A DNA stretch of 42,759 bases from Sphingomonas sp. 67-36. GTDB taxonomy: Bacteria; Pseudomonadota; Alphaproteobacteria; Sphingomonadales; Sphingomonadaceae. The position numbers and the translations under genes were made by a program. Positions 11,000 to 11,885 of the stretch are shown piece after piece. Below the pieces are notes generated by a model, which was not told the DNA's origin, made no database searches, and worked only from the letters and a program-made list of their open reading frames with translations. Each line of letters begins with the position of its first letter. Position 1 is the stretch's first letter. The stretch covers positions 1-42,759 of the forward strand of contig MKSU01000027.1 in assembly GCA_001897375.1 (NCBI GenBank). Direction: 5' to 3'.

Positions 11000-11058
11000 G
11001 CAATCCCCCTCGATGAGCCGCCAGAAGCGCGAAGCAGGTGGAATCCGTCAAGCGATCA

Positions 11059-11066
11059 ATGGTTAA
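11059..11066 (-). promoter_or_regulatory. CtrA half-site (TTAACCAT) upstream of ccrM
   Basis: The reverse strand reads GCGTTAACCATTGATCG, which holds TTAACCAT, the CtrA half-site known from alphaproteobacteria, about 60 bases before the ccrM start. A second TTAA lies at 11087-11090 within CGTTAACG. The spacing between the two TTAA cores is 20 bases, not the 7 of the full CtrA box, so this is not a canonical full site. Confidence 0.5.
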
Positions 11067-11118
11067 CGCATATCGTTGCGAAATCGTTAACGAAGCGGAA
11101 CATTTCGTGGCCGCCGGC

Positions 11119-11157
11119 AGATGTTGAGTCCGGCGAGTCGCGCTTGACTCAACATCT
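11119..11157. repeat. Inverted repeat with GANTC in both arms and in the loop
   Basis: Perfect 12-base arms AGATGTTGAGTC (11119-11130) and GACTCAACATCT (11146-11157) enclose 15 bases that contain a third GAGTC (11135-11139). It could be a dimeric protein operator or a cruciform or hairpin whose stem carries two CcrM sites. No T-run follows on the rnhB-to-ccrM strand, so a simple terminator is less likely. Confidence 0.75.
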
Positions 11158-11276
11158 CGCGGTGTGACTCGAAAGACTCACCGCCCACCGCGATGACGAT
11201 TTTTTCTGCTTTTCCGCTCCCGCGACCGAAAAATGCGCCGGGCGATTCGGAAAAGGCGGGCCGAATCACGATTGAA

Positions 11277-11885
11277 TCACAGCGGCAGCTCGGCCTGCGC
11301 GACCGGCGCGAAGCTGCGGCGATGGAGCGGCGACGGCCCGTGCTCGCGCAGCGCGCGCTGGTGCGCCGGGCTGCCATAGCCCTTGTTCGAGGCCCAGCCG
11401 TAATGCGGCCAGGTCTCGTGATGGCGCAGCATGATCGTGTCGCGGGTATGCTTGGCGACGATCGAGGCGGCGGCGATCGACAGCGACAGGGCGTCGCCGC
11501 CGACCAGCGCGGTGGCGGCATAGCCCCAGCGCGGCAGGCGGTTGCCGTCGACCAGCACATGGCCCGGCTCGCGCCCGAGCAGCGCCACCACCTGATCCAC
11601 CGCGATCGTCATCGCCTTCATCGTCGCCCAATAGATGTTGAGCGTATCGATCTCGTCGGCCTCGACCACGCCGACGCCGACGATCGCGCAGCCGGTGATG
11701 CGGGCGCAGAGCCGCTCGCGCTCGGCGGCGGGGAGCTTCTTCGAATCGTCGATGCCGCGCGGCACGCCCTTCGCCGGCAGCACGACGGCGGCGGCGACCA
11801 CCGGCCCGGCGAGCGGCCCGCGCCCCGCCTCGTCCACCCCGGCGACGGGCGGCAGGCAAAGTCGTTCGTGCTTCAATCCGGGCAT
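11277..11885 (-). CDS. rnhB: Ribonuclease HII
   Basis: A 202-residue enzyme that cuts RNA in RNA-DNA hybrids and at single ribonucleotides in DNA. The active-site motif VAGVDEAGRGPLAGPVVAAA (Asp-Glu pair) is near the N-terminus. DSKKL, the HVLVDGNRLPRW motif (third Asp) and SIAAASIVAKHTRD follow. The start MPGLKHERL was chosen; it overlaps the end of the upstream thiD fusion gene by 13 bases, and an ATG 12 bases further up is possible. The rnhB-ccrM order is common in alphaproteobacteria. The frame stays open far upstream through thiD, but that part is not coding in this frame. Confidence 0.95.
   Translation of the reverse strand: MPGLKHERLCLPPVAGVDEAGRGPLAGPVVAAAVVLPAKGVPRGIDDSKKLPAAERERLCARITGCAIVGVGVVEADEIDTLNIYWATMKAMTIAVDQVVALLGREPGHVLVDGNRLPRWGYAATALVGGDALSLSIAAASIVAKHTRDTIMLRHHETWPHYGWASNKGYGSPAHQRALREHGPSPLHRRSFAPVAQAELPL

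Follow-up and report, generated by a model that had tools for sequence, protein, structure and literature searches.

The window, i.e., the whole stretch of 42,759 nucleotides of Sphingomonas sp. 67-36 that was analysed (contig MKSU01000027.1), carries ccrM and, upstream of it and in the same direction, rnhB. Both genes and the gap between them are located as follows.

9875..10999, minus strand: ccrM, adenine DNA methyltransferase (GANTC), 374 aa (open reading frame and family match)
11000..11276, minus strand: rnhB-ccrM gap of 277 bp, GANTC-rich control region (from sequence)
11277..11885, minus strand: rnhB, ribonuclease HII (NCBIfam NF000595, 224.6 bits, cut-off 167)

The best NCBIfam model for the CcrM protein is NF050803, with residues 20-367 aligned to model positions 2-349 of 350 and a score of 607.6 bits, i.e., below the model's equivalog cut-off of 830. 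The start of rnhB was placed from the RnhB protein; its stop codon lies at 11277-11279 and ccrM starts at 10999, both on the minus strand. The gap of 277 bp compares with 145-191 bp in 17 of the 25 rnhB-bearing loci among L011-L037. A tRNA gene is found at 1823-1895 of the window (minus strand).

GANTC starts at positions 11041, 11126, 11135, 11146, 11166, 11175, 11244, 11263 and 11274, and all nine positions agree with those listed in a first-pass annotation of this DNA. Eight of the sites lie within the rnhB-ccrM gap while the ninth (11274-11278) overlaps the rnhB stop codon. The annotation's chance expectation of about 0.8 sites per 238 bases is too high, i.e., a genome sample of 800 kb, drawn as 40 stretches of 20 kb and covering about 20% of the 4.0-Mb genome, contains 1184 GANTC, which corresponds to 0.35 per 238 bp. 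The density comparison proposed there was run on this sample and yields a maximum of six sites per 238 bp (windows starting at a site) vs. nine at the ccrM cluster. The Poisson probability of at least nine sites at 0.35 expected is 1.7e-10, and dinucleotide shuffles of the cluster's 238 bases (n=5000) show 2.1 GANTC on average and seven at most, such that none reaches nine. In the window as a whole, GANTC is scarce (59 observed vs. 196 expected from shuffles). The nine-site cluster is confirmed as real and far above chance. Its five central sites all read GAGTC or GACTC, two forms to which 145 of the 617 GANTC (23.5%) in the sample's first 400 kb belong, about three quarters being GAATC or GATTC.

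Further accumulations of GANTC were observed elsewhere. The second densest cluster of the window has five sites in 122 bp (241-362) at the start of an open reading frame for a flippase-like membrane protein (227-1693, plus strand; named from the look of its sequence). The densest of the genome sample (stretch L136 on contig C9 of the same genome, 16107-16395) reaches six sites per 238 bp and seven in about 290 bp; it covers the end of a gamma-glutamyltransferase-like frame and the gap before an AraC-like regulator frame at 16566, both likewise named from sequence look. Three GATTC at window positions 35694, 35718 and 35742 are spaced by exactly 24 bp.

Relatives of ccrM were collected by a protein search, from which the best 80 of at least 592 loci were taken; these are mostly named sphingomonads (Sphingomonas, Sphingopyxis, Novosphingobium, Erythrobacter and relatives). 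The upstream alignment consists of the window and 79 of these loci (n=80), with L046, the locus of an accessory fused CcrM, omitted. L046 is counted among the 81 upstreams of the dyad, box-pair and free-spacing tests; in most counts its nominal upstream falls inside the fused reading frame, and its true upstream was examined separately. A 46-sequence alignment comprises the window and 45 of 46 loci, where L040 was omitted as very like L039.

The best-80 set shows a conserved order of elements: GAGTC comes first, followed by a GAGTC and a GACTC at a distance of 19-20 bp and finally by TTGAC, which is accompanied by one or two GANTC. The respective alignment columns (n=80) hold GAGTC in 73, GAGTC in 58, GACTC in 65 and GACTC in 34 sequences (GATTC in 3). 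Within the first three columns the central GANTC base is invariant, despite the GAATC/GATTC majority of the genome sample. The window's sites with counterparts across these relatives are 11175 (site A), 11146, 11126 and the TTGAC-proximal 11041, of which site A is the most conserved of the cluster (73/80). In the same alignment (n=80), no column with at least six members exists at 11244, 11263 and 11274, and 11135 has no counterpart at its own column among 79 upstreams. The layout is unchanged whether rnhB is adjacent or the rnhB-ccrM gap measures about 1-2 kb. The first-pass annotation had named conservation of the sites in number and phase among sphingomonads as support for its reading; what is kept is the fixed layout, while the number of GANTC in the last 260 bp before ccrM varies between 2 and 10 (median 6, 80 upstreams) and no 10.5-bp phase is seen. 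An exact DnaA box (TTATCCACA) is present within 120 bp of the ccrM start in 21/79 relatives, nearly all of them outside Sphingomonas. The elements of the window's control region are listed below.

11041..11045, minus strand: GATTC directly after TTGACG, CcrM site of the putative core promoter (comparable GANTC in 65/79)
11046..11051, minus strand: TTGACG, putative -35 of the ccrM core promoter (from sequence)
11062..11091, minus strand: two GTTAAC motifs (11062-11067 and 11086-11091)
11114..11129, minus strand: proximal predicted NrdR box, ACTCAACATCTGCCGG on the minus strand, with a degenerate outer half (reductase matrix score 7.9)
11126..11130, minus strand: CcrM site GACTC at the inner end of the proximal box, with the last C at box position 4 (65/80, always GACTC)
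11135..11139, minus strand: additional GANTC within the 17 bp that separate the boxes (some spacer GANTC in 25/79 pairs)
11146..11150, minus strand: CcrM site GAGTC at the inner end of the distal box, with the first G at box position 13 (58/80, always GAGTC)
11147..11162, minus strand: distal predicted NrdR box, CCGCGAGATGTTGAGT on the minus strand (reductase matrix score 10.7)
11166..11170, minus strand: extra, lineage-specific GAGTC flanked by site A and the distal box (9/80 in column; 9/79 pairs including the window)
11175..11179, minus strand: site A, GAGTC, 17 bp upstream of the predicted distal box (73/80 in column, always GAGTC)
11244..11278, minus strand: three non-conserved GANTC near the rnhB end (11244, 11263, 11274)

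The second and third conserved columns mark the inner ends of an inverted repeat with imperfect arms, and these arms resemble NrdR boxes. We scored them with a reductase matrix of 16 columns derived from 35 boxes upstream of ribonucleotide reductase genes, i.e., without ccrM sequences. It draws on 21 genomes, i.e., the own one plus 20 relatives; a reductase gene was matched in 20 of the 21, and box pairs came from 26 loci. The boxes were chosen by a scan with an NrdR consensus, taking the best-paired sites, and were copied by hand; they are mostly of the nrdA type, including the own genome's nrdA, while two stem from a longer reductase (L210).

Box pairs 31-33 bp apart with a score of at least 12 are found in 78 of the 81 ccrM upstreams vs. 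11 of 1661 windows taken as controls elsewhere in these loci. The respective Fisher P of 3e-119 ignores relatedness, i.e., related sequences are counted although not independent. When the spacing is left free between 17 and 60 bp, the best pairs are spaced by 31 (4), 32 (27), 33 (44), 34 (2), 43 (1) and 48 bp (1), such that 77/79 fall within 31-34 bp, measured start to start. With the NrdR consensus in place of the matrix, pairs are still detected in 61/81 ccrM upstreams vs. 0/320 controls. A single recognisable box was found in L031.

In the window, the two boxes are 33 bp apart start to start, with a spacer of 17 bp and a pair score of 18.5. The proximal box is weak (7.9) and has C rather than G at position 13, which places the window among the five of 78 pairs without this G (G in 73/78). 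Over both boxes, G-C pairs at positions 4/13 are complete, i.e., all four positions, in 72/78 pairs, and at least three are kept in 78/78, which is partly enforced by the matrix. Published NrdR boxes are 16 bp long with conserved G-C pairs in each box (PMC12176259, PMC12051234, PMC9110341), and a spacer of 14-17 bp is described as needed for optimal binding in a passage of PMC12051234. The window's spacer of 17 bp, i.e., about three helix turns centre to centre, lies within this range. The fixed spacing of the conserved sites appears better explained by a predicted pair of NrdR boxes plus a core promoter than by helical phasing or a SeqA-like protein.

With regard to the rest of the genome, the only pair scoring at least 16 in the 800-kb sample is that of nrdA (30.1), whose boxes are part of the training set. 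A second model, R1, was built from the ccrM pairs and is rich in GANTC; in the own genome it matches ccrM alone and not nrdA, which it could not show because of its GANTC content. Using stricter filters, R1 exceeds its threshold in 11/60 genomes of the order. A repeat element was rejected as a candidate, since exact matches to the arm sequence GATGTTGAGTC in the genome are limited to the two arms themselves. The fused CcrM of L046 (2461-4089, 542 aa), which bears an extra N-terminal domain, offers a natural control: the 300 bp before its reading frame hold one GANTC and no NrdR-type pair. The same contig carries PIN-toxin-like and antitoxin-like frames, named from the look of their sequences.

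The CcrM sites are placed on the inner side of the boxes. GANTC occurs on inner box edges in 74/78 pairs and on outer edges in 0/78. The inner sites are on both boxes in 47, on the proximal box alone in 17, on the distal box alone in 10 and on neither in 4 pairs (n=78). At the reductase boxes, GANTC was found in 0/22 pairs (from 26 loci). Four loci (L014, L016, L024, L037) retain the boxes with both inner GANTC lost. Judged by the letters, the same bases would serve both CcrM and NrdR, namely G13 of the distal and C4 of the proximal box. Outside the boxes, 71/78 pairs have a GANTC at the position of site A, 16-19 bp ahead of the distal box.

Downstream of the proximal box, TTGAC starts after 61-64 bp in 67/78 pairs. 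A GANTC 5-12 bp after the first T of TTGAC is present in 65/79 upstreams, and 48/79 have two within 26 bp. The most common pattern has sites at 8 and 19 (25/79), GANTC at +8 or +9 plus +19 is seen in 41/79, and the pattern of the window with one site at 6 in 7/79. We take the GATTC at 11041, directly after TTGACG, to be in a GcrA-type position. The two GTTAAC motifs resemble CtrA half-sites; GTTAAC is found within 140 bp of the ccrM start in 43/80 upstreams. GcrA is encoded in the genome (PF07750, 133.3 bits, cut-off 26.9), with 139.9 bits against an NCBIfam equivalog cut-off of 280 and thus below it. That is, both sequence features expected of a GcrA promoter are found, a methylatable core GANTC and a GcrA gene. 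Adhikari 2021 (PMC7987155) predict that ccrM belongs to the core targets of GcrA in many alphaproteobacterial orders.

We also compared upstreams of ccrM in other orders. CcrM is found at E <=1e-60 in 176/241 genomes of the class, from which 86 extra-order upstreams were compiled (26 loci and 60 stretches, without G104, G190 and G127); this is a non-random set of nearly the highest-scoring matches. At least three GANTC within 260 bp are observed in 64/86, with a mean of 3.6 GANTC per 260 bp vs. 0.17 further upstream (scaled from 140 bp). TTGAC followed by two GANTC is present in 32/86, and TTGAC with GANTC in 48/86. The GANTC-rich extra-order upstreams agree with the prediction of ccrM as a core GcrA target (PMC7987155). 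NrdR-type pairs with a score of at least 16 are found within the last 210 bp in 25/86 upstreams vs. 0/86 at 190-400 bp upstream, and pairs of score 12 in 29/86 vs. 0/430 mononucleotide shuffles. Some of these extra-order pairs fall in rnhB coding sequence, where codons could yield box-like letters. In L117, L171 and L182, near-perfect boxes sit in the apparent last rnhB codons (IHKILC, IHKMLC, VHKMLY), a possible case of dual coding; in L165 the box comes after an rnhB-like stop, and the ccrM upstream of L098 showed no rnhB-like frame.

The candidate regulator is present, i.e., NrdR is encoded in the own genome (TIGR00244, 173.6 bits, cut-off 124.65) and carries D15 and R17, two residues said to confer its specificity (PMC9110341). 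Since nrdR is found in all 80 genomes tested (79 above the cut-off), its presence or absence is uninformative with regard to a link between nrdR and ccrM. A comparison of box dialects is partly informative. The central AT of nrdA boxes is observed in 0/12 cases in the genus Sphingomonas, for both boxes, vs. 5/7 and 7/7 for the reductase boxes outside of it. The distal ccrM box follows with 3/28 in Sphingomonas vs. 42/51 elsewhere, while the proximal box shows AT in 27/28 and 50/51, respectively. The dialects of nrdA and ccrM thus appear to agree only partially, because the proximal ccrM box keeps AT where nrdA lacks it.

Taking these observations together, we consider it likely that the cluster is a composite ccrM control region, i.e., a core promoter, an NrdR-type box pair and CcrM sites on the inner box edges, with NrdR regulating ccrM; this reading is drawn from sequence patterns. 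Points that speak against it are the weak proximal box of the window, the single box of L031, the partial agreement of the dialects, R1 matching ccrM but not nrdA and its few matches in the order, the distance of the boxes from TTGAC and the GcrA score below the equivalog cut-off. In the proposed mechanism, an NrdR tetramer loaded with dATP and ATP at an excess of DNA precursors would bind both ccrM boxes. Bound NrdR would lower ccrM transcription together with that of ribonucleotide reductase, such that the methylase would be made in step with DNA synthesis. GcrA and the main sigma factor would act at the methylated core sites. With less certainty, adenine methylation beside two NrdR-critical G-C pairs may alter NrdR binding, by which CcrM activity could feed back on its own operator.

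This last step leads to a more tentative proposal, namely that CcrM gates its own NrdR operator; we regard it as conceivable, with the balance leaning slightly against it. The adenines targeted by CcrM are next to the innermost G-C pair of each box. Either methylated, hemimethylated and bare operators would differ in NrdR binding, or NrdR would keep the sites unmethylated, which would yield a two-way loop between precursors and methylation. Such a loop would be old, given the NrdR-type pairs before ccrM in 25/86 extra-order genomes. It is made conceivable by the lower nrdA expression in a Caulobacter ccrM deletion (PMC3973325), though this is a different order.

A serious rival to repression is that NrdR acts as an upstream activator, with an increase in dATP, as replication ends, switching ccrM on; this is compatible with the sequence statements made above. 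The boxes lie at a near-fixed 61-64 bp upstream of TTGAC (67/78) rather than over it, i.e., they precede the putative -35. For topA of Pseudomonas aeruginosa, NrdR is an activator (PMC4409342). Furthermore, Caulobacter ccrM expression is limited to the S-to-G2 transition (PMC8116508). On the other hand, NrdR is described as a repressor at ribonucleotide reductase genes in passages of PMC9110341, and a further ccrM promoter upstream could overlap the boxes. On balance we hold activation to be unlikely, though well worth considering.

GcrA/CcrM feedback alone is a less probable account. Here, the array would consist of GcrA-sigma70 sites at which methylation tunes ccrM, and the likeness to NrdR boxes would be incidental. 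This is in accordance with the encoded GcrA and the predicted core GcrA target (PMC7987155), with the extra-order upstreams that have at least three GANTC (64/86) or TTGAC-GANTC-GANTC (32/86), and with site A, which matches the extended motif YGAKTCK in 38/71 cases. What it leaves unexplained is that the box sequence reaches well beyond GANTC (e.g., GACTCAAyATsTTGTG), that the boxes are spaced by 31-34 bp and match reductase operators, and that some boxes persist without GANTC. At the core promoter, GcrA feedback is probably correct, as a complement to the explanation by NrdR and not a substitute for it.

The first-pass annotation had suggested methylation feedback on ccrM, implemented as a phased array that counts methylation or is bound by a SeqA-like reader of hemimethylated sites. 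A dense, conserved cluster tied to ccrM fits the feedback as such, while the counter, the phasing and the reader did not stand up. A counter of set number is at odds with 2-10 sites (median 6) in the last 260 bp of 80 upstreams. Regarding helical phasing, the mean cosine over 1226 site pairs from 81 loci is -0.03 at 10.5 bp; it reaches 0.51 at 9.8 bp, which we attribute to the fixed layout that related sequences have in common. The SeqA family PF03925 has no match in the own genome, and among 14 control genomes it matches in Escherichia coli only. A phased counter or SeqA-like reader is thus very improbable, although a hemimethylation reader from another, non-SeqA family is possible.

Least probable of all, to the point of being dismissed, is that the inverted repeat AGATGTTGAGTC...GACTCAACATCT acts as a folded strand, i.e., an RNA hairpin or DNA cruciform, for which the window's perfect 12-bp arms and a DNA fold z of -4.5 (86-nt piece) would speak, while among the 49/81 upstreams with a GAGTC...GACTC dyad the arms pair no better within species than shuffled between species (3.76 vs. 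3.93 for 7-bp arms, 7.16 vs. 7.04 for 14-bp arms; even with G-T pairs allowed in the 14-bp arms, the most favourable case, 442/5000 shuffles reach the observed value), the whole gap as RNA has z = -1.1 and no Rfam match occurs in the gap at gathering thresholds. The fold was rejected for this lack of arm covariation, and the repeat is taken as a DNA site because its arms do not covary.

In Alphaproteobacteria, the matching of methylation to DNA synthesis is described via CtrA, GcrA and protein turnover. A nucleotide-sensing regulator at ccrM, if true, would be a direct metabolic input to DNA methylation, i.e., the cell may tie methylation to DNA-precursor levels via NrdR. It would extend the role of NrdR, called RNR-specific in PMC9110341, beyond RNR to an epigenetic enzyme, and would make ccrM a natural operator where methylation and a regulator may compete. 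The NrdR, ccrM and GANTC literature that was searched, with subscription papers and RegPrecise outside its scope, yielded no report of NrdR at ccrM; a prediction in those sources is possible. By title, none of the ccrM/GANTC papers found deals with this GANTC cluster, and no paper on an NrdR box in Alphaproteobacteria was found. In passages of Brilli 2010 (PMC2877005), GANTC and DnaA motifs are counted before cell-cycle genes, with no conclusion on methylation control, and for the terms searched PMC3667746 and PMC5172544 gave no passage on the ccrM promoter.

The predicted ccrM operator can be related to several known systems. The NrdR operators of nrdAB, nrdHIEF, nrdDG and nrdRJ have the same build, i.e., two palindromic boxes of 16 bp, separated by about 15-17 bp and carrying conserved G-C pairs, of which the window's proximal box lacks one, while here a DNA methyltransferase gene is concerned and the inner box edges are replaced by GANTC. 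With clustered methylase sites, the region is also like the GATC clusters bound by SeqA; it differs in that the own genome has no SeqA match and neither site number nor a 10.5-bp phase is conserved at ccrM. In Lrp/pap- and OxyR/agn43-type operators, the methylase site lies inside the regulator's binding site; likewise, the ccrM sites lie within the (here predicted) operator, where binding and methylation could exclude each other. In contrast to these, the controlled gene at ccrM is the methylase itself and the candidate regulator senses nucleotides. With regard to position, the ccrM pair sits some 62 bp ahead of the putative -35. In known NrdR operators, by contrast, the boxes often overlap with the polymerase site (passages of PMC9110341, PMC12176259). 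GcrA/CcrM promoters share the core-promoter GANTC, and ccrM is already a predicted core GcrA gene; box pairs, site orientation and NrdR are absent from the consulted passages of PMC7987155. Finally, topA of Pseudomonas aeruginosa (PMC4409342) is, like ccrM as predicted here, an NrdR target outside ribonucleotide reductase, with a single NrdR box at topA and a conserved pair with embedded methylation sites at ccrM.
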